Part shown: positions 19,470 to 56,600 of the stretch, in pieces | Position numbering within the stretch: the stretch's first letter is position 1 | Layout of the letters: every line of letters begins with the position of its first letter | Assembly (NCBI GenBank): GCA_017550535.1 | Contig: JAFZOS010000039.1 | Span: 1 to 64,000 of the forward strand | Origin: Lachnospiraceae bacterium | Lineage (GTDB): Bacteria > Bacillota > Clostridia > Lachnospirales > Lachnospiraceae | Length of the DNA stretch: 64,000 bases | Direction: 5' to 3' | Notes under the pieces: generated by a model | Told to the model about the DNA's origin: nothing | What the model saw: the letters and a program-made list of their open reading frames with translations, nothing else | Databases searched by the model: none | Position numbers and translations under genes: made by a program

Positions 19470-19542
19470 AATGCCCCTTCCTTCGTCAGCGGCCAATCGT
19501 CGAAACCATCCTGAATTCTGCTACGCAGAATGGTTTCTCCTA
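19470..19542 (-). repeat. Intercistronic structured element, copy 1
   Basis: On the plus strand: GAAACC (19502-19507), invariant bulge ATCCTGA (19508-19514), ATTCTGC/GCAGAAT inner stem (19515-19521 with 19525-19531), then GGTTTC (19532-19537). The outer arms pair perfectly. Flanking blocks AATGCCCC and GGCCAATCGTCG are shared with the copy at 56520. It begins at the stop codon of the glycosyltransferase gene and ends about 20 nt before the Gfo/Idh start. Transcribed from the minus strand as part of the leader or intercistronic RNA. Confidence 0.8.
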
Positions 19543-20535
19543 CCTGTCTCCGTAGTCATATACATCCGCTATTACCCTGCTGTACCACAATGCCTTCAGA
19601 CCCTCGAGCGGATTCCCGATAAGATCCACCTTCTTGCCCTCGGCATATGACCTTGCGTTATAAGTAATCTGCATTTCAACAGGTTTATATCCCTTCCTTA
19701 AGAACCTCGTCACTATCTCCCAGTCAAGGCCGAACTTGCCGCCCCTGAAATTTATGCCGTACATGCAGTCTTTATGAAATATCTTATACATCGTGAAAGG
19801 ATCCGTCATTTTGGATCCGCACGCTAAGTTTATTACTCCCGTTAGCAACTTCTGCCCGAAGTTAAGGTAACCTGCGATCAGGTTGTTTTTGCTGCCACCC
19901 TCGGAAAACTTGCGCATCTTCCAGTCATCCTTGCGGTATCTGCTTCCGAGTACAAACAGTGCCTCCCCGTCCTTTATGGGTTTAAGCAACCTGTCATAAT
20001 CATCAACCTTGTATTCAAGGTCACCGTCCTGTATGGCGTAATAATTGCCTTCAGCCTGCTTTATCCCGTTAAGTACCGCATTGCCCTTGCCCATCGGCTT
20101 TTCTTCAAGTATGAGCTTAACGAGGCCGGGATTTGCCTGCGCATGCTTTTGGGCTATTTCCCTGGTACCGTCGCTTGAATTGCTTTCCACGATTATGATC
20201 TCAATATCCATTATCCATTCGTGGTTTATAAGAAGAGTAAGGAGTTCATCGGCCGTGCGTCCCTCATTATACATCGGGACTATGACAGAAAGCTTGGGCT
20301 CCTTTTTTTCGCTCTTAACGCACTTTATAAGGAAGCATCCCTTTTTAGGACACTCCCTCATCTTAACGACCTTTTCAAACCCGCATCTGATAAGAAGAAG
20401 ACCTTCTTTTTCCTGGTCTATCTTCTTACCTTTTCTGTATATAAACAGCTCCTGTCCCTGTTCCATCCGGGAATAAAACTCATTAAGCAGCTGCTCGTTT
20501 ATCATTGTATTTTCGTCTATAACCTGCTTTTCCAC
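19540..20535 (-). CDS. GT2 family glycosyltransferase with extra N-terminal segment
   Basis: A roughly 331-residue glycosyltransferase of the dolichyl-phosphate-mannose-synthase-like GT2 group: LSVIVPMYNEGRTADELLTL opens the GT-A domain, with VESNSSDGT, the QDGDLEY metal-binding acidic motif, and DPFTMYKIF. The ~65 residues before it (LLIRCGFEKVVKMRECPKK) resemble the last strands of a SAM-dependent methyltransferase, hinting at a fusion remnant. The start is uncertain: GTG at 20535 behind AAAGG fits, and TTG at 20541 or an internal ATG are alternatives. It probably transfers a sugar to a lipid carrier or glycan; no membrane helices are seen. Confidence 0.82.
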   Translation of the reverse strand: MEKQVIDENTMINEQLLNEFYSRMEQGQELFIYRKGKKIDQEKEGLLLIRCGFEKVVKMRECPKKGCFLIKCVKSEKKEPKLSVIVPMYNEGRTADELLTLLINHEWIMDIEIIIVESNSSDGTREIAQKHAQANPGLVKLILEEKPMGKGNAVLNGIKQAEGNYYAIQDGDLEYKVDDYDRLLKPIKDGEALFVLGSRYRKDDWKMRKFSEGGSKNNLIAGYLNFGQKLLTGVINLACGSKMTDPFTMYKIFHKDCMYGINFRGGKFGLDWEIVTRFLRKGYKPVEMQITYNARSYAEGKKVDLIGNPLEGLKALWYSRVIADVYDYGDR

Positions 20536-20587
20536 AAACAACCTTTCATGTAAATATGCTCATGTTGTTTCGCGCTGACTGTCATGA

Positions 20588-20593
20588 ATTATA
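20588..20593 (-). promoter_or_regulatory. -10 box upstream of the glycosyltransferase gene
   Basis: TATAAT on the minus strand, about 50 nt before the start, with a weak TTTAAT 17 bp further upstream that overlaps the pyrD stop codon. This separates the sugar gene set from the pyr operon. Confidence 0.45.
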
Positions 20594-20611
20594 ACACAGT
20601 TTCATAAATTA

Positions 20612-21529
20612 TTAAACCTGTTTCACACAGCCTGTCAGTTCCCTGATATCCTTAACGCCGTACTTTATCATGTAATCATGTATCCCGTCGATGACCTCCT
20701 GTGTTGTGTAAGGGTTGTGGAAGTTCATCGCGCCCACCGCAACGGCAGTCGCTCCCGCCATTATAAATTCAAGCGCATCTTCGGCATTTGCGATACCGCC
20801 CATGCCGATAACGGGAATCTTTACTGCCTGAGCTGCCTGGTATACCATCCTTACGGCCACCGGCTTTATCGCAGGTCCCGAAAGGCCTCCGGTTTTGTTT
20901 GCAAGCGCAAAGGTACGTTTATGTATGTCGATCTTCATTGCAGTCAGGGTATTTATCAGTGATATGGCATCGGCGCCTGCTGCCTCAGCCGCCTTTGCCA
21001 TTTCTGCTATATCCGTTACATTTGGAGAAAGCTTCATTATCACGGGCTGTGCCGCATGCTTTTTTATCTGTTCCGTAATGTTAAACAGAGCATCCGCCTT
21101 CTGGCCGAACGCTATGGCGCCTTCCTTTACATTGGGACAGGATACGTTTATCTCAAGCATATCCACTGCCTTATCTGACAGTCTTTCCACTACTTCCAAA
21201 TAATCCTCAACTGTTTTACCGCATACGTTTACTATTACCTTCGTATCATAGTCCTTTAAAAATTCAAGGTCTCTTTCGATAAAGGTATCTATACCGGGGT
21301 TCTGCAGTCCTATCGCGTTTAACATACCGCCACAGGTCTCAACGACCCTGGGAGTGGGGTTTCCGAGCCACGGCACGTTTGCAACGCCCTTGGTCACCAC
21401 TGCTCCGAGTTTGTTAAGGTCGACAAATTCCGAATACTCCATGCCCGATCCGAAGGTGCCCGAGCCTACCATGACAGGGTTCTTAAACTCAACCCCGGCG
21501 ATGTTTACAGTCATTACAGCATCACTCAC
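20612..21529 (-). CDS. pyrD: Dihydroorotate dehydrogenase B, catalytic subunit
   Basis: A 305-residue FMN-dependent TIM barrel that oxidises dihydroorotate to orotate. The catalytic cysteine lies in NVSCPNVKEG, and FMN-phosphate binding residues lie in GMGGI and GATAVAVGAMNF near the C terminus. It is the class 1B enzyme, which passes electrons to NAD via PyrK. Its start overlaps the pyrK stop by 4 bp (ATGA), consistent with a stoichiometric complex. Last gene of the pyr operon. Confidence 0.96.
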   Translation of the reverse strand: MSDAVMTVNIAGVEFKNPVMVGSGTFGSGMEYSEFVDLNKLGAVVTKGVANVPWLGNPTPRVVETCGGMLNAIGLQNPGIDTFIERDLEFLKDYDTKVIVNVCGKTVEDYLEVVERLSDKAVDMLEINVSCPNVKEGAIAFGQKADALFNITEQIKKHAAQPVIMKLSPNVTDIAEMAKAAEAAGADAISLINTLTAMKIDIHKRTFALANKTGGLSGPAIKPVAVRMVYQAAQAVKIPVIGMGGIANAEDALEFIMAGATAVAVGAMNFHNPYTTQEVIDGIHDYMIKYGVKDIRELTGCVKQV

Positions 21530-22293
21530 AGCTCCACCTCCGTTGCGTTAAATACGGGACCGTCCGCACAAATCCTTTTGTTCTTCACCTTCGAATGGTC
21601 ATCCGTATCTGTTGATTTACATACACATCCAAGACATGCTCCTACCCCACATGCCATTCTTTCTTCAAGTGAGATATAGGCTTCAATGCTATTTTCTTCA
21701 GCAAACTTCTTTACCCCACGCAGCATCGGAGTCGGTCCGCATGCATATATGACCCCTCCGTCCACCTTATTTTCCTTTATCGCATCGATAACATTACCTT
21801 TTGTTCCCAGTGACCCGTCATCTGTTGCAATAACGACATTCCCGTAACTTAAAAACTCCTTATCAAGAAAAGTGTCTTTATTCCTGTATCCCAAAACTAT
21901 GGTCTTTTCACCCTTAAGCCTTTTTGCAAGTTCAAGCATCGGGGGTATTCCGATGCCCCCTCCTACAAGTATTGCCTTTTCATTCTTTATGGGAAATCCG
22001 TTTCCGAGCGGACCTAATATATCAACCTCATCTCCCGTTTTATACTTAGAAAACTCCTTTGTGCCCGCACCGGCGATCCTGTATACGATCCTTAACCTGC
22101 CTCCGTCCTTATCGTCAGCCTCACATATACTTATCGGCCTCGGGAGCAGCCTTGTCTTATCCTTCGTATAAACGGATAAAAACTGTCCCGGGACCGCATC
22201 TGACGCGATACCGGTCTTTATCCACATGCTGTATATTTCGTCCGCCAACTTTTCCTGGGATATTACCCTTGCGGTTTCCTTCCTTTTGCTCAT
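21526..22293 (-). CDS. pyrK: Dihydroorotate dehydrogenase B, electron transfer subunit
   Basis: A 255-residue ferredoxin-reductase-like subunit with an FAD domain (LLPRPISI), an NAD domain (GGGIGIPPMLELAKRLKG) and a C-terminal 2Fe-2S site (C-GVGA-CLG-C-V-C and a later ICADGPVF cysteine). It relays electrons from PyrD to NAD. It overlaps pyrD, its partner. Confidence 0.96.
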   Translation of the reverse strand: MSKRKETARVISQEKLADEIYSMWIKTGIASDAVPGQFLSVYTKDKTRLLPRPISICEADDKDGGRLRIVYRIAGAGTKEFSKYKTGDEVDILGPLGNGFPIKNEKAILVGGGIGIPPMLELAKRLKGEKTIVLGYRNKDTFLDKEFLSYGNVVIATDDGSLGTKGNVIDAIKENKVDGGVIYACGPTPMLRGVKKFAEENSIEAYISLEERMACGVGACLGCVCKSTDTDDHSKVKNKRICADGPVFNATEVEL

Positions 22294-22367
22294 ACTCTTC
22301 TTTATCCTTACTGTAGTTACTCTGTCTTCTTTAATCCTGCAGCCCTGATGATATCCCTACACAACAT

Positions 22368-23663
22368 TTATACAATGGTTTCATCTTTATATACGACCTC
22401 TCCACCGCAGATGGTATACTTAACCCTGCCCTTAAGCCGCCAGTTAACAAAAGGCGAATTGCATGACTTTGATACAAAATCACCCACTATCCACTCTTCT
22501 TCCGGATCAAATATAACGATATCCGCAGGACTGCCCATCTTAATGCTTCCCGCATTGATATTAAAAACAGCCGCCGGCGTGGTGCTCATCCTTTCAATAA
22601 GCTGCATCATATTAAGATATCCCTTGTCAACAAGTGTGGTGATACCAAGCGCCAGCGATGTTTCAAGTCCTGTTATACCGCTCGGGGCCTCGGTTATCGG
22701 CATACCCTTTTCTTCCTTTGTGTGAGGCGCATGATCGGTAGCTATCATATCGATAGTGCCATCCTTAAGCCCTTCTATTATCGCCATTCTGTCCTCTTCG
22801 GTCCGAAGCGGCGGGTTCATCTTTGCATCAGATCCGTATTTAAGGACAGCTTCCTCCGTGAGTGAAAAGTGATGCGGAGTGGCTTCCGCATGTACATCGG
22901 CGCCCAGTTCCTTATACTTTCGCACAAGGTCAACCGCTTCTTTTGTGCTTATATGCTGGATATCAATACGCGCCCCGGTTTCAAGCGCGAGCTTTAAGTC
23001 CCTCTTTACCATGAATATCTCCGCACTGCGGTCGGCACCTCCGATACCCAGCTTCTTTGATACATAACCCTTGTTGATCCCGTTATCTTCTATAAAATCA
23101 GGATCCTCTTCGTGCAGGCTTACCGGTATATCCAGTTCCTTTGCCTTCATGAAAGCTTCCTTTACAAGCGCTTCATCAAGCACCGGCTTTCCGTCATCCG
23201 ACAATCCTACCGCACCTGCGGCCTTTAAAGCTGTGGCATCGGTAAGCTCTTTTCCCTCAAGCCCCTTTGTAACAGTACCTACCGAGTAGATATGTATATC
23301 CTCGCCCTCTGCTTTATTAAGGACGCTCTTAAGATCCTGCTCGTTATCCGGCGCGGGTTTTGTATTACCCATCATCACAACGGATGTGAATCCGCCCTTT
23401 GCGGCAGCCATCGCCCCCGTATGGATGTCCTCCTTATGTATGAACCCCGGATCCCTGAAATGCACATGCACATCCACCAGTCCCGGCGCGGCTATAAGTC
23501 CCCTTCCGTTTATCACCATATCCGCCTGGATCTCACGGATAGTACTCTTACTGTGCAGATCGACAGCCGTTACCTCACCCTTGCTTATGAGGATATCGAC
23601 AATTTCATCCGTATGACTTTCCGGATTTATAAGCCTTATGTTCCTTATCATTATTCCTGCCAT
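22368..23663 (-). CDS. pyrC: Dihydroorotase, class I
   Basis: A 431-residue amidohydrolase that cyclises carbamoyl aspartate to dihydroorotate. It has zinc ligands in the HVHFRDPG motif near residue 60 and the conserved DHAPH toward the C terminus. The start may instead be the ATG four codons in (MIRNIRLIN), which has a closer ribosome binding site. Within the operon it lies 74 nt before pyrK. Confidence 0.95.
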   Translation of the reverse strand: MAGIMIRNIRLINPESHTDEIVDILISKGEVTAVDLHSKSTIREIQADMVINGRGLIAAPGLVDVHVHFRDPGFIHKEDIHTGAMAAAKGGFTSVVMMGNTKPAPDNEQDLKSVLNKAEGEDIHIYSVGTVTKGLEGKELTDATALKAAGAVGLSDDGKPVLDEALVKEAFMKAKELDIPVSLHEEDPDFIEDNGINKGYVSKKLGIGGADRSAEIFMVKRDLKLALETGARIDIQHISTKEAVDLVRKYKELGADVHAEATPHHFSLTEEAVLKYGSDAKMNPPLRTEEDRMAIIEGLKDGTIDMIATDHAPHTKEEKGMPITEAPSGITGLETSLALGITTLVDKGYLNMMQLIERMSTTPAAVFNINAGSIKMGSPADIVIFDPEEEWIVGDFVSKSCNSPFVNWRLKGRVKYTICGGEVVYKDETIV

Positions 23664-23688
23664 GATCCTATACCTTTTCCTTCATCCT

Positions 23689-25035
23689 TTACCCGTTAAG
23701 CTTAACTGCGGCGTCCCTTCCCGCGATCGCGCCTGAAGAAAACGCCCACTGGAGATTGTAACCTCCGCATGTACCGTCCACATCCGCCAGTTCGCCGACA
23801 ATGTACAGGCCGGGGATGATCTTCGATCCGAGATCCTCTGTAAGCTCATCAAGGCTTACTCCTCCCGCTGTGACCTGTGCCCGTTCAAATCCGGCATCTC
23901 CCGTGACCTTTACGTTAAGGTTCTTAAGCAGCGCCGTAAGAGTCATTAGTTTTTTATCCTGCACATTCCCCGCAAGTGAACGGGGAATGATGCCTGCCTC
24001 GTTTAAGCAGTATTCCGCAAGCTTTTCGTTAAGGCACAGACTCAACGCTTCAAGCGCGCTCCTATCCCGTCTTGTATCCTTATTTCGCATGCTCGATACA
24101 TCGTAATATCCGTCAAATGCCCTTCTCATAAGTGCAAAAAGTTCATCTTCTGTCTCATCAGGAAACAGGTCTATCCTTACCGATACTTCCCTGCCTTCGT
24201 CAAAGGCCGGCCCGGCATACCTGCTCACCTGCATTACCGGGATCCCGCTTACATTATCCTTATTGAATATTATCTCACCCTTCTCGTCCGATACCTCCCT
24301 GCCCGAAACCACAAGGGTTACCGCACATTTGACCCGTACGCCGGCAAGCTTTGACAGCTTCTTATCCGAATGCATAAGGGGCACAAGAGCGGGCCGCTGG
24401 GGCTTTATCGTATGTCCCAATCCGGTTATGACACTGTTCAGATTACCGTCACTCCCGTGTGCCGGGCTTGCTTTTCCTCCAACGGCGAGTATCAGTTTTT
24501 TGCAACTGTATGTACTTTTACGCGTCGTTACCGTGAACCGCCTTTCTTCATCCGGTTCATCATATATATCCGAAGATGAGGCATTTTCATCGTCCGGGGT
24601 ATATGTTATATCGATCACAGGTTCCTCACAGCATATCTTTACCCCGAGCCTCCTGCATTCAAGCAGCAGGGCATCAGCTACGCTCTTTGCCTGCTCGTTG
24701 TAGGGATAGATGTAATCTCCTATATGTTTGGTCATCATGCCCAGCTCATGGAAGAAAAGCAAAAGGTCGTCCCTGTTGTAGTTATCCACTATCTTAAGCG
24801 CAAACCCGGGATCCCCTCCCCTGTACACCTTATCATCCATATACAGGTTTGAAAAATTGCACCTTCCGTTTCCGGTGGCATACAGCTTCTTAAGCGGCTT
24901 ATCCTTCTGTTCGAACACAGTAACAAAGGCGCCTTCCCGTGCAGCACTTATTGCTGCCATAAGTCCTGCCGGTCCTGCGCCTGTTATTATCACATCACAT
25001 TTATTATCTTTTGATCTCTTTGAGTTATCAAGCAT
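23689..25035 (-). CDS. HI0933/BaiN-family FAD-dependent oxidoreductase
   Basis: A 448-residue flavoprotein with dinucleotide motif ITGAGPAGLMAAISAA near the N terminus, the family signature YATGNGRCNFSN, and the C-terminal GELADVDGTCGGYNLQWAFSSG. This family includes BaiN, which reduces steroid double bonds, and many uncharacterised members. Its position inside the pyr operon, 25 nt before pyrC, does not reveal a substrate. A ~20-residue acidic insert (around DDENASSSDIYDEPDEER) is unusual. Confidence 0.88.
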   Translation of the reverse strand: MLDNSKRSKDNKCDVIITGAGPAGLMAAISAAREGAFVTVFEQKDKPLKKLYATGNGRCNFSNLYMDDKVYRGGDPGFALKIVDNYNRDDLLLFFHELGMMTKHIGDYIYPYNEQAKSVADALLLECRRLGVKICCEEPVIDITYTPDDENASSSDIYDEPDEERRFTVTTRKSTYSCKKLILAVGGKASPAHGSDGNLNSVITGLGHTIKPQRPALVPLMHSDKKLSKLAGVRVKCAVTLVVSGREVSDEKGEIIFNKDNVSGIPVMQVSRYAGPAFDEGREVSVRIDLFPDETEDELFALMRRAFDGYYDVSSMRNKDTRRDRSALEALSLCLNEKLAEYCLNEAGIIPRSLAGNVQDKKLMTLTALLKNLNVKVTGDAGFERAQVTAGGVSLDELTEDLGSKIIPGLYIVGELADVDGTCGGYNLQWAFSSGAIAGRDAAVKLNG

Positions 25036-25043
25036 GTTTTGTT

Positions 25044-25901
25044 CTATATGGCGACCTCTCCCGTAAACACTGTCCGGGCGGGTCCCGTCATGTATATATG
25101 TCCGTCTTCCTCATTCCATTCTATCACAAGATCGCCGCCTCTTAAACCAAGAACTGCTTTTCGCTCACTCCTTCCCGTAAGTACCGCCGCAACAAGCGAT
25201 GCACAGGCTCCCGTACCGCAAGCAAGTGTTTCACCGCTGCCCCTCTCCCATACACGCATCCTTAAGTGACTCTTATCGATCACCTTTACAAACTCCGTAT
25301 TAACGCCTTCCGGGAACGCGGGATGATGCTCATATGCGGGCCCGATCTTATCAAGCTCGAGGCTGTCCGTATCATCAACAAATATGACCGCATGCGGGTT
25401 ACCCATTGAAACCGCCGTCATCTTCTCATCTTTACCGTTTACGTTATAGGTAACGTTAATGAGCCTGCCCTCACCGTCCGTGCCTGTGGCCGTGTGTGAA
25501 GCATCGGCCGGGATATCACAAGCCTTCAGTATAGGCTCGCCCATATCTACCCTTACGGTATCAACCTTTCCGTCCGCAATATTAAGGTAAAGGGTCTTAA
25601 CGCTGCCGCAGCTTACTATCTTAACGGGATTTAAATCCGTAAGTCCGTTGTCATACACGAACTTGGCCACACACCTTATTCCGTTTCCGCACATATTGCC
25701 GCGCGAACCGTCGGCATTATACATCTCCATCTCGAAATCGGCTTCATCGGAAGGGTTTATGAATATGACCCCGTCCCCGCCTATACCGAAGTGCCGGTCG
25801 CTTAACCTTACCGCGATCCCTGACCTGTCATTAACCTCCTGGTCACCGGTATAAACGTATATATAATCATTGCCGCAGCCCTGCATTTTAGTAAATTTCA
25901 T
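25044..25901 (-). CDS. dapF: Diaminopimelate epimerase
   Basis: A 285-residue PLP-independent epimerase turning LL-DAP into meso-DAP for lysine and peptidoglycan. The two catalytic cysteines are C71 (NMCGNGIRC) and C228 (LACGTGAC). The product of DapL, encoded at 58422, is its substrate, so this organism uses the aminotransferase variant of the DAP pathway. It is embedded in the pyr operon, 8 nt from the FAD enzyme. Confidence 0.96.
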   Translation of the reverse strand: MKFTKMQGCGNDYIYVYTGDQEVNDRSGIAVRLSDRHFGIGGDGVIFINPSDEADFEMEMYNADGSRGNMCGNGIRCVAKFVYDNGLTDLNPVKIVSCGSVKTLYLNIADGKVDTVRVDMGEPILKACDIPADASHTATGTDGEGRLINVTYNVNGKDEKMTAVSMGNPHAVIFVDDTDSLELDKIGPAYEHHPAFPEGVNTEFVKVIDKSHLRMRVWERGSGETLACGTGACASLVAAVLTGRSERKAVLGLRGGDLVIEWNEEDGHIYMTGPARTVFTGEVAI

Positions 25902-25914
25902 GATAGTCTCCTTA

Positions 25915-28900
25915 TTAGATCTCCGATATCCTCGGTGTTATCTCCTCAAGTACGTCAAGCAGTATCCTTACCGTGTCAAGAGAGGTGAACATCGTTACCC
26001 CGTTAAGTATCGCGCATTTCCTGATCGCCTCGCCGTCAACGTAATGAATGCCCGACAATATCGCCCTCGTATTGATTATATAGCTCACGTAACCGGCGCG
26101 GATCGACTGAAGTATCTCGTCGCTTCCCTCCGAAAGCTTTCCGCGGATCCTGGTCCTTATACCGTGCTCCTTAAGGAACACTCCCGTTCCTATAGTGGCT
26201 TCGATATTAAAGCCCAGTTCGTAAAACCGTTTTACGAGCGGAAGTGCCTCTTCCTTATCCTCATCCGCCAGAGTGAATATCACTGTGCCGTATTCCTTCA
26301 TCTTAATGCCGGATGCCTGCAGTGCCTTATACAGCGCCCTCTTTAAGCTCCTGTCATACCCTATCGCCTCACCGGTTGACTTCATCTCGGGCGACAGGTA
26401 TGCATCCATTCCATAAAGCTTCTCAAAGGAAAATGCCGGTGCCTTGACATACCAGAAGTCCTTTTTTTCAAGCACCTTATCCGCATATCCCTGTTCCTTC
26501 AGGCTTTCTCCGAGCATTACCCTTGTTGCGATATCCACAAGCGGGACTCCGGTTGACTTTGACAGAAAGGGAACGCTCCTTGATGCCCTGGGATTGACCT
26601 CTATTATATAAACTTTCTCATCCTTATCCACGATGAACTGGATGTTGTACAAACCTACGATCCCTATGCCCACTCCCAGCTTCTTGGTATAATCGGCAAT
26701 GGTTTCCTTAACCTTATCCGATATCGAAAACGGCGGGTAAACGCTGGTAGAATCACCCGAATGCACGCCCGTCCTCTCGACAAGCTCCATAATACCGGGA
26801 AGAAATACATCCTTTCCGTCACAGATCGCATCTATCTCAACTTCCTTGCCGACCACGTATTTATCAACGAGAACCGGCCTGTCAGTATCGACTTCGACCG
26901 CATTCTTAAGATACTTTGTAAGCATATCCTCGTTGGCAACTATCTCCATCGCACGCCCGCCTAATACGAACGAAGGACGCACAAGTACGGGATATCCTAT
27001 TTCCTTGGCCGCTTTAATACCTTCTTCGATATTTGTAACGGCAACACCTGTAGGATGCGGGATGTTAAGTTTTATGATAACGTTCTCAAATGCATCCCTG
27101 TCCTCGGCCGCGAATATCGCATCGGGATCGGTACCTATTATCTTAACCCCGCGCGCTGCCAAAGGACCCGCAAGGTTAACTGCTGTCTGTCCTCCGAGCG
27201 ATGCTATCACACCATCGGGCTTCTCAAGCTCGATTATGTTCATTATATCTTCGACCGTAAGCGGTTCAAAATATAGTTTGTCGGCTGTTGTGTAATCCGT
27301 GGATACCGTCTCAGGGTTGTTATTTATGACAATCGCCTCATATCCCATCTCGTGGATCGTCTTTACTGCGTGCACTGTTGAGTAATCAAATTCAACGCCC
27401 TGACCTATCCTTATCGGACCGGATCCGAGTACTATGACCTTCTTGTTATCTGATATCCTTGATTCATTTTCATCCTCATATGTCGAATAGAAGTAAGGCA
27501 CATAACTTTCAAACTCGCTCGCGCAGGTATCGATCATCTTATATACGGGCTTAATGCCGTACTCCTTACGAAGCTCCCAGATATCCTCCTCACTGCTGCC
27601 GGTGAGTGATGCTATGGTTTTATCACAAAAGCCCATGCGCTTTGCTTCATATAACAGTTCCTTTGAAAGCTTATCCGAGGCCTTTATCTTTCCTTCAAGA
27701 GTCACTATATCCTTAAGCTTGTCAAGGAAGAACATATCTATCTTGGTCCTTAAGTATATTACTTGAGGATCCACTCCCATACGAAGGAGCTGCGCTATCG
27801 CATATATCCTGTCATCCGTTCCTTCCCCGATATATTCAAGCAGCTTCTCGGTCTTATCGGTATCACCGTAAAAGTCACCCTTTTCATATACCGTATCGGG
27901 ATCAAATTTAGCCGAATACAGATAGTCGTAACCTTCCTCAAGCGAACGAATCGCCTTAAGCAGGCTCTCCTCCATCGTCCTTCCGACACTCATTGTCTCT
28001 CCCGTTGCCTTCATCTGGGTTGACAGTGCGTTTGAAGCGGTTGTGAACTTATCAAACGGAAAACGCGGCATCTTGGTGACCACATAATCAAGCGCAGGCT
28101 CAAAGCAGGCCGGCGTGTTCGCAAGCATTATCTCATCAAGGTTCATGCCCACCGCTATCTTGGCAGATACCCTCGCTATCGGATATCCGCTTGCCTTTGA
28201 TGCAAGCGCCGATGACCTTGATACCCTGGGGTTTACTTCTATAACGTAATAATCAAACGACTCGGGATCTAAGGCAAACTGAACGTTACATCCGCCCTTT
28301 ACCTTAAGTGCGCGGATGATACGGATCGCAGCGTCCCTTAACATATGATATTCCTTATTGGTAAGGGTCTGACTTGGCGCAACGACTATGGAATCACCCG
28401 TGTGTATGCCTACGGGATCTAAGTTTTCCATGTTGCAGACGGTGATGACCGTATCGTTGGCATCCCTTATGACTTCGTATTCTATCTCCTTATATCCCTT
28501 GATGCTCTTTTCAACGAGCACCTGATGTACGGGGGACAACTCAAGCGCATGCTTCATCATCCGCTCCATCTCTTCGGGATCGCCCGCAAAGCCGCCGCCT
28601 GTACCGCCTAAGGTAAACGCGGGGCGCAGGATCACGGGATAACCTATCTCCTGAGCGGCCTTAAGTCCTTCCTCAACTGTGACCGTTATCATCGAAGGAA
28701 CCACCGGCTCATTAAGCTGCTCGCACAGCTCCTTAAACTGCTCTCTGTCCTCTGCCTTCCTGATACTGTCGGCATCGGTCCCCAAGAGCTCTATCTCACA
28801 TTCACCGAGCACTCCCTTGTCATAAAGCTGTAATGATAAGTTAAGGCCCGTCTGTCCTCCGATGCCCGGAACTATCGCATCAGGCCTTTCATAGCGGCAT

Positions 28901-30211: not shown

Positions 30212-30234
30212 CTGTATGTCTCCTTATTCTTAGA

Positions 30235-31367: not shown

Positions 31368-31374
31368 CAGTATT

Positions 31375-33107: not shown

Positions 33108-34544
33108 TCAAATCCCGTGTTTGTCCCGAAGCCTTTCTACAACCCATTTTGAGTAATTAAACTTGCGCAGGGGCGTTGGCTTAAGGTCTCCGTAATCCAT
33201 GACCTCCTTTAAATAATCGATCTTTAATTCTTCATCATTAAGATACTTATCAACTGCGGGTGCGGCATCCGTCGACAGACTATGAAAGATGTAATGATAA
33301 TCACAGTCATCCTGCGTCTGAAGATTATATGCCGCAATGCTGTAATCCGGCCTTATACATATAAAAGCTGCCCACATACAGGTAAGGACAACCATGCAGT
33401 ACTTACAAAACGGCATACCCGGAACAAATATAAAGATAAGGGTACCGATCATGGCAAGTCCGATCACCGCAAGTGCCCAAAGTACATAAAGCCTAAGGAA
33501 TGTCAGTCCGTACGCATCCACATACAGCGCCATCCTGTACGCACTTGAAAAGATCATGATGAAGGTACACATGGATATAAGGCTTAACATGACCTTAAGT
33601 ACCGTATTGTCCTTCGAATACTTCCTGCACAAAAGGACCAGTATGAGGTTTATGATGCACACGAATACAAGCTGGTAAAAACCTTCATGCACATATTTTG
33701 CATATGTATAACCGTCGGGAAGGGTACCGTATCCCATGAAGAGATACACGATCTGTATAATGCAGTATAAGCCGTATACTATTAACATGACCGTGCTTAT
33801 GGTTATCGCTACTATCGGGTTTGCCCTTCGCTTATCCTCCGATGGAGAATCAAGCTTCTGCATCCTTACATTAAGCCTTGTTATAAGGGCATAGGCAACA
33901 AAGAAGATGACCAGTATCATCCATGCAACCCCTATGATATCCTCGTTAAAGTCAAACTCAAAATACATGATATTATCAAGAAGTTCCTTAAACACCGCAT
34001 CGGATGATGCAAGAAGGGGCAGTACCACCAAAAGTATCGGGACGGATATCGCAAGTCCTATGAAGATATACAGACCGGCGCCGTGACCCTTTCCGGCTTC
34101 TCCTTCATCCTTTTTTTTGTGATCCTTAATAAATCCGATCAGGTCCTTAACGGGCCGCGGCAGAAAACGCACAGACGATGCTGCCATTGCTGCGATCGCG
34201 CCTAAGTATCTTGACACATCCCAGTCTCTGTCATCGTATAAATTATGTAAAAACAGGGTAAAAAAGAGCACAAAAATAAAAGCCCTGTCAAAATCAGCCA
34301 ATATCGCGCTGCCGGTAAGGCAGACGTGAGTGCTAAATATCAATATCCCGGCCACAGGAAAGACGGAAAACGTTTTCATAGTAAGACCTTGTTTTTTCAT
34401 ATAATATACAAAAATGCACAAGGTCCCGACGGCGAAAAAAGGGAAAGTCACACCGCTGTAATTCTTATAAAGGCAAAAGGTATAGAACAGGGAATACGCC
34501 CCGCACAAAAGGGCAAGCCCCAAACCGTTAAGTTTATCGATCAT
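33108..34544 (-). CDS. DUF4173/DUF4153-like polytopic membrane protein
   Basis: A 478-residue integral membrane protein with about eleven hydrophobic segments and the C-terminal YNLQTQDDCDYHYIFHSLST-type stretch. That ending is seen in DUF4173 proteins, with conserved tyrosine and aspartates after the last helix. I chose the ATG at 34544, 6 nt behind GGAGGAAG. Function unknown. Upstream lie the YozG-like regulator and DUF2975 protein; the third copy of the structured intercistronic element occupies the gap. Confidence 0.83.
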   Translation of the reverse strand: MIDKLNGLGLALLCGAYSLFYTFCLYKNYSGVTFPFFAVGTLCIFVYYMKKQGLTMKTFSVFPVAGILIFSTHVCLTGSAILADFDRAFIFVLFFTLFLHNLYDDRDWDVSRYLGAIAAMAASSVRFLPRPVKDLIGFIKDHKKKDEGEAGKGHGAGLYIFIGLAISVPILLVVLPLLASSDAVFKELLDNIMYFEFDFNEDIIGVAWMILVIFFVAYALITRLNVRMQKLDSPSEDKRRANPIVAITISTVMLIVYGLYCIIQIVYLFMGYGTLPDGYTYAKYVHEGFYQLVFVCIINLILVLLCRKYSKDNTVLKVMLSLISMCTFIMIFSSAYRMALYVDAYGLTFLRLYVLWALAVIGLAMIGTLIFIFVPGMPFCKYCMVVLTCMWAAFICIRPDYSIAAYNLQTQDDCDYHYIFHSLSTDAAPAVDKYLNDEELKIDYLKEVMDYGDLKPTPLRKFNYSKWVVERLRDKHGI

Positions 34545-34569
34545 TGCTTTCTTCCTCCTCATCTAAAAT

Positions 34570-34649
34570 GTATTGCCCCCTCAAAAACAGTCGGCGGCCT
34601 GTCGTCGGAAGACATCCTGAATATGACTTCGTCATATGTCTTCCTCCTC
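34570..34649 (-). repeat. Intercistronic structured element, copy 3
   Basis: Same topology as copies 1 and 2 with different stem sequences: outer arms GGAAGAC (34607-34613) and GTCTTCC (34638-34644), inner arms ATATGAC (34621-34627) and GTCATAT (34631-34637), loop TTC, and the invariant bulge ATCCTGA (34614-34620). Flanking GTCGGCGGCC and TGCCCCC are shared. The XRE stop codon lies inside the hairpin. The element ends about 25 nt before the DUF4173 start. Confidence 0.78.
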
Positions 34650-34847
34650 ATATTCAAATAAGTCCCCGGGCTGGCATTTTAAGATATCGCACAGTGCCTC
34701 GATCGTTGACACCTTGATGGCTTTTGCCTTGCCCGTTTTAAGTATCGACATGTTTGCGAGCGTTATCCCGACGCGGTCCGCAAGCTCGGTCACGCTCATC
34801 TTTCGTTTTGCCAGCATAACATCTATGTTAAAAACCAAATGGCCCAT
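34632..34847 (-). CDS. YozG-like XRE/Cro HTH regulator
   Basis: A 71-residue Cro/CI-type HTH protein (MSVTELADRVGITLANMSIL, followed by KAIKVSTIEALCDILKCQPGDLF), as in the YozG family that is almost always paired with DUF2975 membrane proteins, as here (19 nt upstream). It probably represses its own operon; an inverted repeat in the shared promoter is a candidate site. The acidic C-terminal tail overlaps the structured element. Confidence 0.88.
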   Translation of the reverse strand: MGHLVFNIDVMLAKRKMSVTELADRVGITLANMSILKTGKAKAIKVSTIEALCDILKCQPGDLFEYEEEDI

Positions 34848-49759: not shown

Positions 49760-49799
49760 ATCCCTTGTCTCCTCATTTGTATCACATTTGATACTGTAT

Positions 49800-51170
49800 C
49801 TAAACCGGATAGTTATTGTCAAAGCAGGCACTGCACAGCGGCAGATCGTTAAGCATCGTTTTAAAATCCTCCGTATCAAGATAGCTTAACGAATCCGCTC
49901 CGACCGCCTTCCTTATCTCCTCGGCGGAATGTCCCGAAGCTATCAGCTGCTTGCTGCTCGGAACGTCCGTCCCGTAATAGCAGGGGTACAAAAACGGCGG
50001 CGAGCTTATCCTGACATGGACCTCCTTTGCCCCGCAGGACTTAAGCATCTCTATTATCTGCCGCATCGTGGTCCCCCTGACTATCGAGTCATCGATAAGC
50101 ACAAGGCTTTTATCCTTTACCACGTCCTTAAGGACGCTTAACTTCATATGCACGGCCGTGTTTCTTTCCTCATCGGTCGGTTTTATGAAGCTCCTTCCGA
50201 TATAGCTGTTCTTCTGAAAAGCGAGCTTAAACGGTATCCCGGATTCCTTTGAATACCCTTCCGCTGCGGCGAGTCCCGAATCGGGAACCCCTGCCACCAG
50301 ATCGGCCTTTACCGGATTCCTCCTTGCAAGCGCCATGCCGGCCCTTAACCTTGCTTCATGTACGTTTATACCGTCTATTACCGAATCTGTCCTTGCAAAA
50401 TATATATATTCAAACACGCAGTGCGCGGGCCGTTTTCCGCACAGCTCCTCGTTGCTCTTTATGCCTTCATCCGATATCGTTACTACTTCACCGGGCTTAA
50501 CATCCCTTATAAGCTCGCCTCCGACCGAAACGATCGCGCAGCTTTCGGATGCCAGTATGTAGCTGTCTCCCTTGCGTCCGAGTACGAGCGGCTTTATCCC
50601 GTATGGGTCCCTTATGCCTATCAGCTTTTTGGGGCTCATCACTATAAGTGCATATCCGCCCCTTAACCTGCCGGCCGCCCTTTGAACTGCCACTTCAACC
50701 GAGGAAGAATACACCCTTTCGCTGACTATCTCATAGGCCAGCACCTCGGTGTCCGATGTCGTGTAATGCGCCTGCCCACGGTACATCTGCTCCTGCTTTA
50801 TCTCATCGGCATTTACTATGTTGCCGTTATGCACTACGGCCAGCGAACCTTTGATATAATTCATCGCTATCGGCTGGGCGTTTGCAAGGACACTGCCTCC
50901 GGTCGTTGAATAACGCACATGCCCTATGCCTATGTTTCCCTTTGTCTCATCAAGGAAGTGCCTGTCAAACACCTCGCTCACAAGACCCATTCCCTTGTGG
51001 GTTATGATGTTTCCCATGGGCCCCTGCGTATCGCATACGGACATCCCCGCCGATTCCTGTCCCCTGTGCTGAAGGGATAACAGCCCGTAGTAGATATCCG
51101 CGGCCACATCCGTGCCGTTTCCCGCATATATCCCGAATACGCCGCATTCTTCATGAAGCTTATCAGTCAT
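49800..51170 (-). CDS. purF: Amidophosphoribosyltransferase
   Basis: A 456-residue enzyme catalysing the first committed step of purine synthesis from PRPP and glutamine. An 8-residue propeptide precedes the Ntn nucleophile C9 (EECGVFGIY). The phosphoribosyl domain has the PRPP loop VLIDDSIVRGTT and late cysteines (LCSACFD) that likely bind a 4Fe-4S cluster, as in the Bacillus type. The start follows GGGAG. It is 16 nt behind pyrG. Confidence 0.96.
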   Translation of the reverse strand: MTDKLHEECGVFGIYAGNGTDVAADIYYGLLSLQHRGQESAGMSVCDTQGPMGNIITHKGMGLVSEVFDRHFLDETKGNIGIGHVRYSTTGGSVLANAQPIAMNYIKGSLAVVHNGNIVNADEIKQEQMYRGQAHYTTSDTEVLAYEIVSERVYSSSVEVAVQRAAGRLRGGYALIVMSPKKLIGIRDPYGIKPLVLGRKGDSYILASESCAIVSVGGELIRDVKPGEVVTISDEGIKSNEELCGKRPAHCVFEYIYFARTDSVIDGINVHEARLRAGMALARRNPVKADLVAGVPDSGLAAAEGYSKESGIPFKLAFQKNSYIGRSFIKPTDEERNTAVHMKLSVLKDVVKDKSLVLIDDSIVRGTTMRQIIEMLKSCGAKEVHVRISSPPFLYPCYYGTDVPSSKQLIASGHSAEEIRKAVGADSLSYLDTEDFKTMLNDLPLCSACFDNNYPV

Positions 51171-51186
51171 CTGATTCTCCCTCACT

Positions 51187-52842
51187 CTATACGATACCGG
51201 ATTTTATAAGCGCCTGCTCTATAAGTCCCTTAAACAGCGGATGAGGGGCATCAGGTCTTGACTTAAATTCCGGATGCGCCTGCGTTGCCAGGAAATACGG
51301 ATGGTCCTTAAGCTCGATCATCTCGACTATGCGCCCGTCGGGAGAGAGTCCCGAAAGAGTCATTCCCGCCTTCGTAAGTACCTCCCGGTAGTCATTGTTT
51401 ACCTCGTACCTGTGACGGTGGCGCTCGGAAATGAGCTTATACTTACTTCCTTCCGCAGCCTTTATATCCTCACCGTTCGAAAGATCGTAATCATAAAGTT
51501 CATACGCCCTGCTGCCTTCCTTAAGCACACAGGGATAGGCTCCGAGCCTGAGCGTTCCGCCTAAGTTTTCAACACCCTCCTGATCGGGCATAAGATGGAT
51601 CACGGGGTTCTTTGTATCCGGTGAAAACTCTATGCTTCCCGCATCCTTTAAGCCGCATACGTTCCTTGCAAACTCAACGATCGATAGCTGCATTCCCAGG
51701 CACAGCCCAAGGAAAGGTATCTTATTGACCCTTGCGTATTCGATCGCAAGTATCTTTCCTTCTATCCCCCTTGAGCCGAAACCTCCCGGCACAAGAATGC
51801 CCTGAAGGTCATGCAGGTATTCGTCGATATTGTCGGGAGTAAGCTCTTCAGAATCCACCCAGCGGATCTTAACTTCCGTCTTATTTGCGATACCGCCGTG
51901 CTTTAATGCTTCCGCTACGCTTAAATATGCATCATGCAGCGCAACGTATTTTCCTACTATCCCTACCTCGACCGAATGCTTCGGATGATGGAAATCTTCG
52001 ACCATCTGCCTCCATGCACTTAAGTCGGGCTCGGGACATGGGAGCTTCAAACACTCGCATACAGCCTGTGCAAAGTTCTCTTCCTCAAGCATCAAAGGAA
52101 CTTCATACAGTGACTGTGCATCAAGGTTCTGGAGCACATGCTCCTTTTTAACGTTACAGAAAAGCGCAATCTTTTCACGCATCGAATCATCTATCGGGTA
52201 ATCCGAACGGCACATTAAGATGTCCGGCCATATACCCATGCTCTGCAGGCTTTTTACGCTCATCTGCGTGGGCTTTGTCTTCATCTCGCCCGAAGCCTTA
52301 AGATACGGGATAAGAGTCACCTGTATGATGATCGCATTCTCGCGTCCCACTTCCGCCTGGAACTGCCTTATCGCCTCAAGGAACGGCTGGCTTTCGATAT
52401 CGCCCACTGTGCCTCCGATCTCGATTATCGATATCGTCTCTTCATCCGGTGACTGCGCCTTGTGGAACCTGTCCTTTATCTCGTTTGTTATATGCGGTAT
52501 CACCTGAACGGTTCCGCCGCCGTAATCGCCGTGCCTCTCCTTATTGAGGACCGACCAGTAAATCTTTCCCGTGGTTACGTTTGAATTCTTATTGAGGCTT
52601 TCGTTTATGAAGCGTTCGTAGTGCCCTAAGTCAAGGTCCGTCTCGGTACCGTCATCGGTTACGAACACCTCGCCGTGCTGTATGGGGTTCATCGTACCCG
52701 GATCCATGTTTATATACGGATCGAATTTCTGCATGGTCACGTGATATCCCCGGGCCTTAAGCAGGCGTCCGAGAGACGATGCCGTTATTCCCTTGCCGAG
52801 GCCCGATACAACGCCGCCTGTTACAAATACGTATTTGATCAT
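51187..52842 (-). CDS. pyrG: CTP synthase
   Basis: A 551-residue enzyme aminating UTP to CTP. The N-terminal amidoligase begins [17 protein letters not shown], and the class I GATase has its nucleophile in [10 protein letters not shown] and a histidine/glutamate in QAHPEF. I set the start at 52842 (MIKYVFVTG), behind GGTGGGGG; a longer frame would add 43 unrelated residues. It belongs to the run headed by asnB. Confidence 0.96.
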
Positions 52843-52855
52843 ATTTTCTACCCCC

Positions 52856-52945
52856 ACCACGATACAAGGTAAGAAGTACTCCGTACTTCTTTTGAACACG
52901 CTCGCCGCTAAGGCATCATAAGGACTCCTCCCGTAAACGGGTCCC
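52856..52945 (-). repeat. Possible diverged copy of the structured intercistronic element
   Basis: In the asnB-pyrG gap the minus strand shows GGAC, CCCG-TTTA-CGGG, AGGA, GTCC. This is the same order of outer stem, inner stem and 3' bulge as in copies 1-3, followed by TTAGCGGCGAGCG, which resembles TTGGCCGCCGACG. A separate palindrome AAGAAGTAC/GTACTTCTT follows, and a G-run lies before the pyrG start. The resemblance is topological rather than strict. Confidence 0.35.
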
Positions 52946-52954
52946 TCCTCATGA

Positions 52955-54535
52955 TCATTGCCCTGACGCACCGTAGTTCGCCAGCACCCTCGCCGACGGA
53001 TCGTTTACGTTACAGCCCTCCCATGACTTGTTGGGCATCCAGAAATCAACCACCATCTTCGACTGTCCCGGATAGTATTCCTCAAATATCTCACGGTACA
53101 AAAGTGATTCTTTTGTAAACGGCCTTGCATGGTCGTACTTCTTTATAAGCTTTTCATATTCTTTATCCGAGTACTTCTCCTCGGCATAAGCCTTAAGGTG
53201 ATCCACCATCGAATGTCCGACCGCATCCGAGAACGCAGCCTTCTCACGCATCAAAATATCGTAAGGCAGGTAATCGCCCTCAAACGCATGGCGCAGCAGG
53301 TATTTGCCCTTTCCGTAAACGTTCATCTTCTTTTTGGGATCGATGCTCATCACATACTGTACAAAATCAAGATCTCCGAACGGTACCCTCGCCTCAAGCG
53401 AGTTAACTGATATACACCTGTCCGCCCTTAGCACGTCATACATATGGATCTCGTCGATACGCTTGACCGCTTCCTTCTGGAACTCCTCCGGACTCGGAGC
53501 AAAATCTGTATATTTATATCCGAACAGCTCATCCGATATCTCACCCGTAAGCAGCACGCGGATATCGGTCTGCTCATGTATCGCCTTGCATACAAGGTAC
53601 ATTCCCATGCTCGCGCGGATCGTCGTTATATCGTAGGTCCCGAGGATAGAGATGACCGTCGGCAGTTCGCGGATGACATCCTCTTTCGTGATGATGACCT
53701 CTGTATGGTCGCTTCCCAGGTAATCCGCAACCTCCTTTGCGTACTTAAGATCTATTGCATCCGTGTTCATGCCTATCGCAAATGTCCGTATCGGCTTATC
53801 CATAAGCTTTGCGGATACCGCGCACACAAGCGAACTGTCAAGGCCTCCGCTTAAAAGGAACCCCAGCGGCGCATCCGAATCAAGCCTCTTCTCGATTCCC
53901 TTTACCAGCTTATCGTGGATGTTCTTACAAATGATCTCGATATCATCATCAACTACCTTATCCACCTTCGTCATGCACCTGTAGCTTACAAACTCACCGT
54001 CCTTATAGTAATGTCCGGGAGGGAACGGGAACACTTCCTTAACAAGCCCGACAAGGTTCTTTGCTTCCGATGCAAACACGATCTCACTGCCGTTTACATA
54101 CCCGTAGAACAGCGGCCTTATGCCGATCGGATCACGCGCCGCGATGAGTGATTCTTCCTTTGCATCATAGATAACACAGGCAAATTCGGCGTCGAGCTTT
54201 TCAAACATTCCCGTGCCGTACAGTTCATACATCGGAAGTAAAAGCTCGCAGTCAGAATCACTTAAAAAGGTATATCCCTTACTCTTAAGCTCTTCCTTAA
54301 TCGGCCTGAACCCGTATATCTCACCGTTACATACAACATAGTTATCGTTAAGGGAAAACGGCTGCATGCCCTCCTCATGAAGACCCATGATGGAAAGGCG
54401 CTCAAAGCCCATTATGCCGCCCGGGATATTTATGATACGCTGCATATCCGGACCCCTCGATGTGGTTTTATCGAAATGCTCCTTGAATTTTTCTATTGTA
54501 AGGCTGCTGCCTAAGTAACCCATTATGGAACACAT
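52955..54535 (-). CDS. asnB: Asparagine synthase (glutamine-hydrolysing), class II
   Basis: A 526-residue AsnB. The Ntn glutaminase nucleophile is C2 (MCSIMGYLG), and the synthetase domain has the pyrophosphatase loop [13 protein letters not shown] and the SLEARVPF signature. It makes asparagine from aspartate, glutamine and ATP. It heads the asnB-pyrG-purF-gltB-gltD run under its own promoter and attenuator-like leader. GGAGG precedes the ATG. Confidence 0.96.
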
Positions 54536-54559
54536 ATCTTTTTCCTCCTTTGTCCTTTG

Positions 54560-54645
54560 CCAAACAAAAGAGGCGCCTTGGACTTAAAGTCCAAAGCGCC
54601 TTTGCTTAACGAAAACAATATATTCCTTTTTTTTATTTAAGTCAA
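54560..54645 (-). promoter_or_regulatory. asnB promoter with promoter-proximal attenuator hairpin
   Basis: Minus strand -35 TTGACT (plus 54640-54645), 17-bp spacer, -10 TATATT (54617-54622). After 16 nt comes a long stem, GGCGCTTTGGACT/AGTCCAAGGCGCC with a TTA loop (54572-54600, one G-U pair), and TCTTTTGTTT. The 5' arm can alternatively form CAAAG-GCG-CTTTG with the sequence just before it, a possible antiterminator. The start codon is 36 nt past the hairpin. Confidence 0.75.
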
Positions 54646-54660
54646 GAGTCAGTTTTTGGT

Positions 54661-56499
54661 TTATTCAACCGTAACGCTCTTTGCAAGATTTCGCGGCTTA
54701 TCGACATCAAGTCCGCGGGCAACGCTCATATAATAACCCATAAGCTGTAACGGGATGACCGCAACGGAGGCCGCGAACAGCTCGTCCGTCTTTGGGATAT
54801 ATACGGTAAAGTCAGCCGTATCCTCGATCTCGTAATTACCGCTGTTGGTAAGTCCGCAAAGGTAGGCGCCCCTGCTCTTTACCTCGACCATGTTTGACAC
54901 GGTCTTTTCATACAGGTCGTTCTGCGTGATCACTCCGATGACCAGGGTTCCGTCCTCTACAAGGCTTATGGTGCCGTGCTTTAATTCACCTGCGGCATAT
55001 GCGCCGGAATGGACGTAGCTTATCTCCTTCATCTTAAGGCTGCCCTCAAGGCTTATCGCATAATCGATGCCTCTTCCTATGAAGAACACATCATGAACGT
55101 TTGAGAACTTAGCCGTAAACCACTGAAGGCGTTCCTTATCCTCAAGCGACCTTTCTATCTTGCCGGGAAGTTTTTTTAATTCCTCTATGAGAGCCGCTTC
55201 CCTTTCGTCATCTATCATGCCCTTGGCCTTTGCCAGCCTTATCGCAAGGATGTATACCGCGATAAGCTGTGCGCTGTAAGCCTTGGTCGTTGCCACCGCG
55301 ATCTCGGGGCCTGCCATGGTATACATCACATGATCCGCTTCCCTTGCTATCGTGGAACCGACCACGTTTACTATGCCCAGTGTCTTTATCCCCCTGCCGT
55401 GAGCCTCCCTTATGGCTGCCAGGGTATCTGCCGTCTCGCCCGACTGCGATATGGCTATGACTAAAGAATCACTCGAAAGAATGGGATCACGGTACCTGAA
55501 TTCGGAAGCAAGCTCAACCCTTACCGGTATCCTTGCAAGCTTTTCGATCACATACTGTGCGACCATGCCCACGTGGTAAGCCGAACCGCAGGCTGTAATG
55601 TGAACCTGTGATAAACCTTTTAATTCTTCATCCGTGATACCTACATTCGATAAGTCGATCCCGGTATCCTTGACATAGGCATTTACCGTATCCTGAACTG
55701 CCTTGGGCTGCTCATGGATCTCCTTCATCATGAAATGCTCGAACCCGCCCTTTTCGGCTGCTTCGGCATCCCACTCAACCTTGGTAAGCTCCTTTTCTAT
55801 CTCCTCGCCGTCAAGGTTATAGAAATGAACTTCGCCGTCCTTAAGGCATGCCATTTCAAGGTTGCCTATATAATAAACATTTCTTGTATGCTTAAGTATC
55901 GCCGGTACATCGGATGCAACAAAGCTTGCCTTGCTGTCAACGCCGATTATCATGGGCGAATCCTTACGGGCTACCCATATCTGTCCCGGATAATCCTTAA
56001 ACATCACGGCAAGTGCATATGAACCGCGGACACGTACCATCGTCTTTGCAAGTGCATCTATGGGACCGATATTGTATTTCTTATAATAATAATCTATAAG
56101 CTTTACTATGGCTTCGGTATCCGTTTCCGAGTAGAATTTGTAATTCTTCTTAAGGAGCTTGTCCTTTATCTCGGTGAAGTTCTCGATAATACCGTTATGT
56201 ACTGCAACAACCTCGAAATCGTCGCTGTGGTGCGGATGCGCATTGTTCTCGGAAGGCTCACCGTGAGTGGCCCAGCGTGTATGCCCTATACCGCAGCAGC
56301 CCTTCATGGCCTTGCCGTCATCGGTCTTATTGGCAAGCTCCAGCAAACGTCCCTTGGCCTTAACTATCTTTACCTTGTTCTCACCGTCGCGCACCGCAAG
56401 ACCGGCAGAATCATAGCCCCTGTATTCAAGCTTTTTCAGTCCCTCAAGCAGTATGGGCGCCGCCTGTTTGTTTCCGCAGTAACCTACTATTCCGCACAT
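54661..56499 (-). CDS. glmS: Glutamine--fructose-6-phosphate aminotransferase
   Basis: A 612-residue enzyme making glucosamine-6-phosphate for the cell wall. It has an Ntn glutaminase (nucleophile C2, MCGIVGYCG) and two SIS sugar-isomerase domains (VHITACGSAYHVGM; SQSGETADTLAA), ending in KSVTVE. The leader contains copy 2 of the structured element instead of a recognisable glmS ribozyme. It is probably the last gene of the dapL-glnA-ANTAR-glmS unit. Confidence 0.96.
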   Translation of the reverse strand: MCGIVGYCGNKQAAPILLEGLKKLEYRGYDSAGLAVRDGENKVKIVKAKGRLLELANKTDDGKAMKGCCGIGHTRWATHGEPSENNAHPHHSDDFEVVAVHNGIIENFTEIKDKLLKKNYKFYSETDTEAIVKLIDYYYKKYNIGPIDALAKTMVRVRGSYALAVMFKDYPGQIWVARKDSPMIIGVDSKASFVASDVPAILKHTRNVYYIGNLEMACLKDGEVHFYNLDGEEIEKELTKVEWDAEAAEKGGFEHFMMKEIHEQPKAVQDTVNAYVKDTGIDLSNVGITDEELKGLSQVHITACGSAYHVGMVAQYVIEKLARIPVRVELASEFRYRDPILSSDSLVIAISQSGETADTLAAIREAHGRGIKTLGIVNVVGSTIAREADHVMYTMAGPEIAVATTKAYSAQLIAVYILAIRLAKAKGMIDDEREAALIEELKKLPGKIERSLEDKERLQWFTAKFSNVHDVFFIGRGIDYAISLEGSLKMKEISYVHSGAYAAGELKHGTISLVEDGTLVIGVITQNDLYEKTVSNMVEVKSRGAYLCGLTNSGNYEIEDTADFTVYIPKTDELFAASVAVIPLQLMGYYMSVARGLDVDKPRNLAKSVTVE

Positions 56500-56519
56500 A
56501 CATTTTCCCCTTTTCTAAG

Positions 56520-56600
56520 GTAATGCCCCCTCCGCATACTTCGTCGGCGGCCAATCGTCGGGATCATCCTGAATTCTGCTACGCAGAATGATCCCTCCTA
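56520..56600 (-). repeat. Intercistronic structured element, copy 2
   Basis: Plus-strand outer arms GGGATC (56560-56565) and GATCCC (56590-56595), invariant bulge ATCCTGA (56566-56572), inner arms ATTCTGC (56573-56579) and GCAGAAT (56583-56589), loop TAC. The blocks TAATGCCCCCTC and CGTCGGCGGCCAATCGTCG lie on the other side. It begins at the stop codon of the ANTAR gene and ends about 20 nt before the glmS start. Confidence 0.82.

Follow-up and report, generated by a model that had tools for sequence, protein, structure and literature searches.

GA-cis RNAs of Lachnospiraceae behave as a dispersed mobile repeat lying mostly ahead of ribosome-binding sites

The window analyzed here is a stretch of 64,000 nucleotides (nt) from a Lachnospiraceae bacterium (assembly GCA_017550535.1, contig JAFZOS010000039.1, positions 1 to 64,000), and it carries three copies of a hairpin-forming element that had been proposed, from the letters alone, to be a selected RNA structure. 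The RNA family is not new, as all three copies belong to the catalogued family GA-cis. What is new is the understanding of that family. GA-cis is a dispersed mobile repeat of Lachnospiraceae and their relatives in gut and rumen, patchy and often tandem, and it behaves as such a repeat rather than as a regulator of particular genes. Orthologous sites are found both filled and empty, most copies lie in sense orientation before a ribosome-binding site (RBS), the 5' arm of the element is often repeated there over 6 to 20 nt, and the arms of its stem covary. On balance, we favor the explanation that GA-cis is a non-coding mobile repeat of about 85 nt that inserts at RBSs by short homology and folds over the start site that its insertion adds.

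Filled and empty sites

In a search of 61 genomes, GA-cis was present in 24, namely the source genome, with nine copies, and 23 of the 36 others of its genus; none was found in the 24 genomes from other families of the same order. Copies number 0 to 22 per genome across the 61, with several tandem pairs, and it is common for tandem copies to keep a single spacing. When GTDB genomes were scanned for an exact pattern, at least 115 stretches matched, and the titles of the 80 listed name Lachnospiraceae, other Clostridia and 'Bacterium D16-56', Roseibacterium (L255) excepted. Reading of the sequences rules out L255 and L314 as GA-cis and leaves L299 in doubt. Eleven further genomes drawn from the scan hold 1 to 96 copies each.

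Evidence of movement comes from 28 GA-cis sites queried in relatives, in a systematic recount over the retrieved loci. Both flanks lie close together in at least one other genome at 13 sites; the remaining 15 gave one flank or none. At 12 of the 13 comparable sites, at least one relative is without the element and shows no visible remnant. The 13th is the window site at 56515, where the sole relative, G014, keeps a remnant that has lost internal sequence but retains the GGGATCAT arm and the GGGGGCATTA end of window copy 3.

The window copies match the Rfam model RF02987 (GA-cis) on the minus strand at 65.5, 69.0 and 70.8 bits, well above the gathering score of 34.7, each match covering model positions 1 to 88 of 88. 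RF02987 is thus an already described family of the kind that the original prediction had counted against itself. The three copies and the stems that it described are all present on direct reading, and its elements are real; the strand is what changes, the RNA strand being minus, as for the flanking genes. Their intercistronic position also stands: within 20 nt of its start, each copy contains the stop codon of one minus-strand gene, and the start of the following gene comes after the copy. The copies, and the direct repeat at copy 2, are as follows.

19463..19544, minus strand: GA-cis copy 1; outer arms GAAACC 19532-19537 and GGTTTC 19502-19507, inner arms 19525-19531 and 19515-19521, bulge 19508-19514; flanked by a glycosyltransferase-2 gene (19540-20541) and a GFO/IDH/MocA oxidoreductase gene (18457-19449)
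34565..34651, minus strand: GA-cis copy 2; outer arms GGAAGAC 34638-34644 and GTCTTCC 34607-34613, inner arms 34631-34637 and 34621-34627, bulge 34614-34620; flanked by an HTH_26 gene (34632-34847) and a DUF4153 gene (start read at 34544)
34639..34651, minus strand: left copy of the 13-nt direct repeat ATGAGGAGGAAGA, equal to the 5' arm of copy 2; single in G014
34550..34562, minus strand: right copy of ATGAGGAGGAAGA, containing the Shine-Dalgarno (SD) sequence of the DUF4153 gene
56515..56602, minus strand: GA-cis copy 3; outer arms GGGATC 56590-56595 and GATCCC 56560-56565, inner arms 56583-56589 and 56573-56579, bulge 56566-56572; flanked by a response-regulator/ANTAR gene (56598-57188) and a glmS-like SIS/amidotransferase gene (54661-56499)

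Copy 2 offers the clearest view of a single event. The element is absent from this site in G014, G021 and G036, the G014 flanks are 88-93% identical to those of the window, and GATGAGGAGGAAGAA is present once in G014. The upstream HTH protein continues as FEYVE... in G014, G021 and G036; its window counterpart reads FEYEEEDI and terminates within the element. Because the protein runs on in all three element-free relatives, we read copy 2 as an insertion rather than a loss, one that cut the upstream reading frame short.

Other sites vary in how the element is distributed. The G036:C59 site is element-free in three relatives and the G032:C118 site in four, with no other occupied relative seen at either or at window 34565. 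The G000:C50 site is element-free in three relatives and occupied in G026; that at G026:C13 is element-free in eight, occupied in G009, and holds a remnant in G032. Remnants also mark the G036:C349 site in G000, the G036:C156 site in G009 and the G000:C14 site in G014. At G000:C64:27011-27023, a remnant of the GA-cis 3' end precedes a gene that we take to be flagellar-hook-like, and G036 has a full copy at the orthologous place. Separately, the G032:C118 copy (L074) is inserted at the end of a small gene whose MGGG ending suggests that it is ThiS-like; by eye, the frame of this gene runs on into the element.

Landing at translation starts

Position was counted for 92 copies of 45 bits or more with 400 nt of flank. 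To count as a start, a sense start codon had to lie within 60 nt, have an SD and open a reading frame of 40 codons or more. Such a start lies downstream of 74 of the 92, and the antisense counterpart on the other side of 3. A gene ends at the element in sense in 70 of these copies, and an antisense gene ends at the far side in 33. The 5' arm also resembles the place where it sits: its longest common string with its own downstream region averages 7.42 nt, versus 5.78 nt for the regions of other copies, a value reached by none of 10,000 permutations (91 copies, with tandem ones, those below 42 bits and those at contig ends dropped), and strings of at least 10 nt occur in 20 of the 91 versus 2.9 expected. 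A second set gave 7.22 versus 6.27 nt, again with 0 of 10,000 permutations; its 51 loci are those left of 85 further matches once 16 from genomes already used, 10 tandem ones, 2 at ends and 6 unreadable ones were dropped.

The direct repeat at the insertion measures 6-20 nt, which is above chance, and is not seen at every site (G036:C10). The longest, of 20 nt in L253, takes in the start codon of the downstream gene. Among recent copies in G036, an identical arm stands before different targets with 6-8 nt in common, so that here the arm is carried by the element itself. These near-identical copies contradict a strictly target-templated 5' arm. The arm of window copy 2, by comparison, occurs once among the parsed copies, yet it fits its target.

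A mechanism consistent with this pattern is short-homology exchange, in which the SD-like 5' end of the element (AGGAGG...ATG) would recombine with the SD/start region of the target and leave a working SD to the downstream gene. The extra SD and start codon made by the insertion would then be covered by the hairpin, formed of tandem G.A pairs, outer stem and inner stem, and in this proposal the insertion is therefore tolerated. Pairing of the arms may be maintained by selection, by templating from a DNA hairpin, or by both.

Structure prediction bears on the covering step. Both AGGA and a start codon are present in the 5' arm of 52 of the 85 copies. Predicted SD accessibility is 0.43 for this decoy and 0.56 for the real site, the decoy being lower in 49 of 73; for start codons the values are 0.20 and 0.43, with the decoy lower in 40 of 51. 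We propose that the stem masks the start site added by insertion, as these modeled accessibilities suggest. A small peptide encoded in the element, with the SD followed by ATG in the arm, was considered and rejected, as frame and length are not conserved. A CsrA site, for which the GGA in the bulge is a candidate, was likewise set aside, with no search for csrA itself, as some bulges have GCA or GAA in its place.

Two other accounts turn on the 3' arm. One, which we hold unlikely, takes GA-cis for a mobile element without genes that inserts where the sequence is complementary to its own 3' arm, the arm either guiding insertion or being copied from the target during it. If this were true, insertion would carry a stem made with the SD/start of the target, and GA-cis would be a base-pairing-guided insertion element that targets translation starts and has a core of about 65 nt. 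The other, in our judgment also improbable, is a selected cis-regulatory RNA in which the 3' arm alternates between its own 5' arm and the downstream RBS mimicked by that 5' arm, switching downstream translation. Such a switch would fit the intercistronic sense position, the compensatory changes at orthologous sites, and the preference of the 3' arm for its own downstream region (mean -11.7 versus -10.0 kcal/mol with others, 0 of 5,000 permutations). However, downstream pairing comes within 2 kcal/mol of pairing with the 5' arm in only 19 of 82 copies and in 0 of 9 in the source genome, where 6 of 9 pair worse than with the mean of other copies' downstream regions. Moreover, the three window copies precede genes with no relation to one another (an oxidoreductase, DUF4153 and glmS-like), and copies inside another RNA family, TwoAYGGAY, have no such site. 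A general riboswitch-like role is not supported, and we reject the switch as the general function of the family.

Covariation and the maintenance of pairing

The 61-genome search listed 135 matches, of which 122 lie in retrieved stretches, 13 weak ones having been left out. The hairpin is readable in a fixed register in 77 of the 122 (76 with a 6-bp outer stem), which reduce to 42 distinct hairpins, and among these covariation, which the original prediction had seen in three copies, is strong. They contain 27 distinct outer 5' arms. Outer arms pair perfectly with their own partner in 83% of the hairpins, versus 13% of pairings with a different arm from another copy, and each of the thirteen stem positions shows at least two standard pair types. 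The bulge, described earlier as never changing, reads TCAGGAT on the minus strand in the window copies, and in just 18 of the 42 distinct hairpins. The ortholog of copy 1, at G014:C153:15160-15241, has outer arms GGAATC/GATTCC.

Structure extends beyond these arms. By eye, tandem G.A pairs prolong the stem and flank a covarying step on both sides, in variants AGGA/GACGA, GATGA/GAAGA, GACTGA/GAAGGA, AGGGA/GACCGA and GACGA/GAGGA. A separate 3' hairpin, GCCGCC...GGGGGC on the minus strand, is made up of the GTCGGCGGCC and TGCCCC blocks, and its pairing is backed, again by eye, by variants ATCACA/TGTGAT, GACACGAT/ATCGTGTC and CCCCGATC/GATCGGGG. RNAalifold on a MAFFT alignment returned only 8 pairs, 4 in the inner stem and 4 in the 3' hairpin, and none in the outer stem, which we attribute to arms that shift register. 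Folding z-scores against shuffled sequence are -3.66, -2.99 and -3.93 for copies 1 to 3; the minimum-energy fold of copies 1 and 3 has a rival 12-bp stem in which the bulge is paired.

Whether the pairing acts in RNA or DNA is less clear-cut than covariation alone would suggest. G-U pairs make up 12 of 524 standard pairs in the GA-cis hairpin versus 24 of 291 in 13 tRNAs from the same retrieved loci (Fisher p 1.3e-4, the cells not being independent). At orthologous occupied sites, 126 stem pairs are unchanged, 14 are double changes, 1 is a single change and 2 are broken, counted over the 11 comparable copy pairs among 15, some with a copy in common. Stepwise RNA selection should leave more G-U, and maintenance of pairing at the DNA level may act alongside it or in its place. 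The low G-U share and the double changes would also be explained by gene conversion between copies, re-insertion or hairpin-templated correction of DNA. The structure that was first noted is thus real and covaries, and the step from there to a selected RNA structure is weakened, because G-U pairs are few and double changes outnumber single ones.

Host repeats, candidate carriers and known systems

Some GA-cis copies are themselves nested in other repeats and RNAs. TwoAYGGAY (RF01731) surrounds a GA-cis copy in 4 of 11 sources tested (G061, G063, G071) at E <0.01, one of them above the cut-off. This family is listed in a table with marks y, n, n (PMC2864571). It is likewise a structured RNA candidate, and its sequence and structure differ from those of GA-cis. 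In the window, Rfam models gave no match to TwoAYGGAY, and covariance models down to E 0.5 gave no RNA family other than GA-cis.

L371, L373, L405 and L407, in two Lachnospiraceae-type genomes: GA-cis inside TwoAYGGAY RNAs
L071 2499-2629, L102 2481-2595, L106 2460-2560, L119 1753-1884 and L098 2489-2617: second hairpin repeat, as described below

G071 has 96 GA-cis matches, and the four that were read (L416-L419) have partly palindromic flanks in common, GTCATTYTGAG ... GCCCGAAGAATCTTT, and so look nested in another repeat too. A second hairpin repeat, GTCATRAGG...GGACC...GG...CCTTATGAC with a variable inner stem, lies in or replaces the GA-cis 3' hairpin in some copies from the genus of the source genome and has no Rfam match at E 0.01. 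A match with one mismatch to its start occurs at window 52940-52955, minus strand, the number of such matches found not being above chance. In G061, a fluoride riboswitch adjoins a GA-cis copy (L360 333-404).

Enzymes that might mobilize the element were sought among Y1 transposases. There were 28 matches, and GA-cis was not found in the 20 loci retrieved; among the other eight, by coordinates, a Y1 gene of RAYT size in G032:C242 is preceded at about 0.74 kb by a GA-cis copy, the pair lying at 4864-5190 and 5934-6016, respectively, and is the only one of the 28 with a copy within 1.5 kb. RAYT-sized Y1 proteins (218-305 aa) occur in 15 of 37 genomes of the genus, and GA-cis is in 13 of these 15 versus 11 of the 22 without one; G036 has 18 GA-cis copies and no RAYT-sized Y1 protein. 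As a partner, a Y1/RAYT transposase is a weak candidate, not a dead one. Elsewhere, a RAYT-sized Y1 gene in L432 (G000:C1) lies near a strong palindrome, to which Rfam gives only miRNA models far below cut-offs. Carriage by phage or plasmid was rejected, with no match to one exact GA-cis pattern in viral contigs and none to window copy 34565 in plasmid and phage collections.

These results bear on a further reading, quite unlikely in our view, in which GA-cis is a REP/BIME-like intercistronic hairpin serving mRNA stability, processing or protein binding, and its spread is a by-product. The stable two-hairpin RNA, the tandem G.A extension and covarying 3' hairpin retained across contexts, and the tandem and nested arrays all agree with it. 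Set against this are the many relatives that keep the gene pair without the element at the same junction, the low G-U share, and the proximity of a Y1/RAYT-type gene in only one of 28 matches. That GA-cis is a free-standing small RNA is most improbable: the Rfam type field, 'Gene; sRNA', is all that favors it, whereas copies sit tightly in sense between genes and their first bases overlap the upstream stop codon.

Several observations weigh against insertion at RBSs by short homology with a covered start site. No transposase is tied to GA-cis, in a search that covered Y1 transposases only, and the direct repeat varies in length, unlike that of most transposons. Three empty sequences, those at G036:C349, at G036:C198 and at the G036 counterpart of the G032:C184 site, are identical to the 5' arm of the element itself, which may therefore have been lost there precisely between repeats; at G036:C10, the empty junction shows no SD. 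Many G061 and G063 copies are not at an SD, and some of these sit inside TwoAYGGAY RNAs. Spread by homology from a resident donor is strained where a genome-unique arm fits its target, as at 34565. The decoy start is confined to the 52 copies counted above, and its masking is a thermodynamic prediction. Finally, some copies persist at orthologous sites with compensatory changes, which fits a retained function.

If insertion at RBSs by target-matching arms holds, a selfish sequence would have an unusual means of entering operons that does not silence them. GA-cis was reportedly first described in a 2017 paper on 224 candidate RNAs, and our literature search, limited in reach, found no report of its mobility. 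GA-cis appears in a table of R-scape improvements (PMC11701678), with other families that gained a single covarying pair. A family for which no function is listed can be explained as a mobile repeat, and its position upstream of unrelated genes is no longer a regulatory puzzle. There is also a warning here, that a spreading hairpin can show strong covariation.

Compared with RF02987 as catalogued, the window copies have the same sequence and the same two-hairpin structure, with no structural difference; what is added to the family is that it is mobile, SD-associated and nested in other repeats. IS200/IS605 guide sequences and the EBS/IBS pairing of group II introns rely on an internal stretch complementary to the insertion site. 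The resemblance of GA-cis to these is of logic only, as it has no protein or catalytic RNA core and does have direct repeats. REP elements are bulged hairpin repeats in tandem and mosaic arrangement, as is GA-cis, which, unlike REP/RAYT systems, is SD-associated and flanks a RAYT gene in 0 of 20 retrieved Y1_Tnp loci and in 1 of 28 by coordinates. The pneumococcal BOX and RUP elements and other repeats resembling miniature inverted-repeat transposable elements (MITEs) are small, non-coding, intergenic, hairpin-forming and multicopy, and are presumed to be mobilized in trans. GA-cis shares the filled and empty sites and the direct repeat of MITE-like elements but not their terminal inverted repeats, its ends AGGAGG... 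and ...TTAC not being inverted repeats on reading, nor a fixed length of target duplication. Like BOX and RUP, it is small, non-coding, intergenic, hairpin-forming and present in many copies; unlike them, it lies in sense at the SD and start, its direct repeat is variable, and its stem arms differ between copies yet remain paired.

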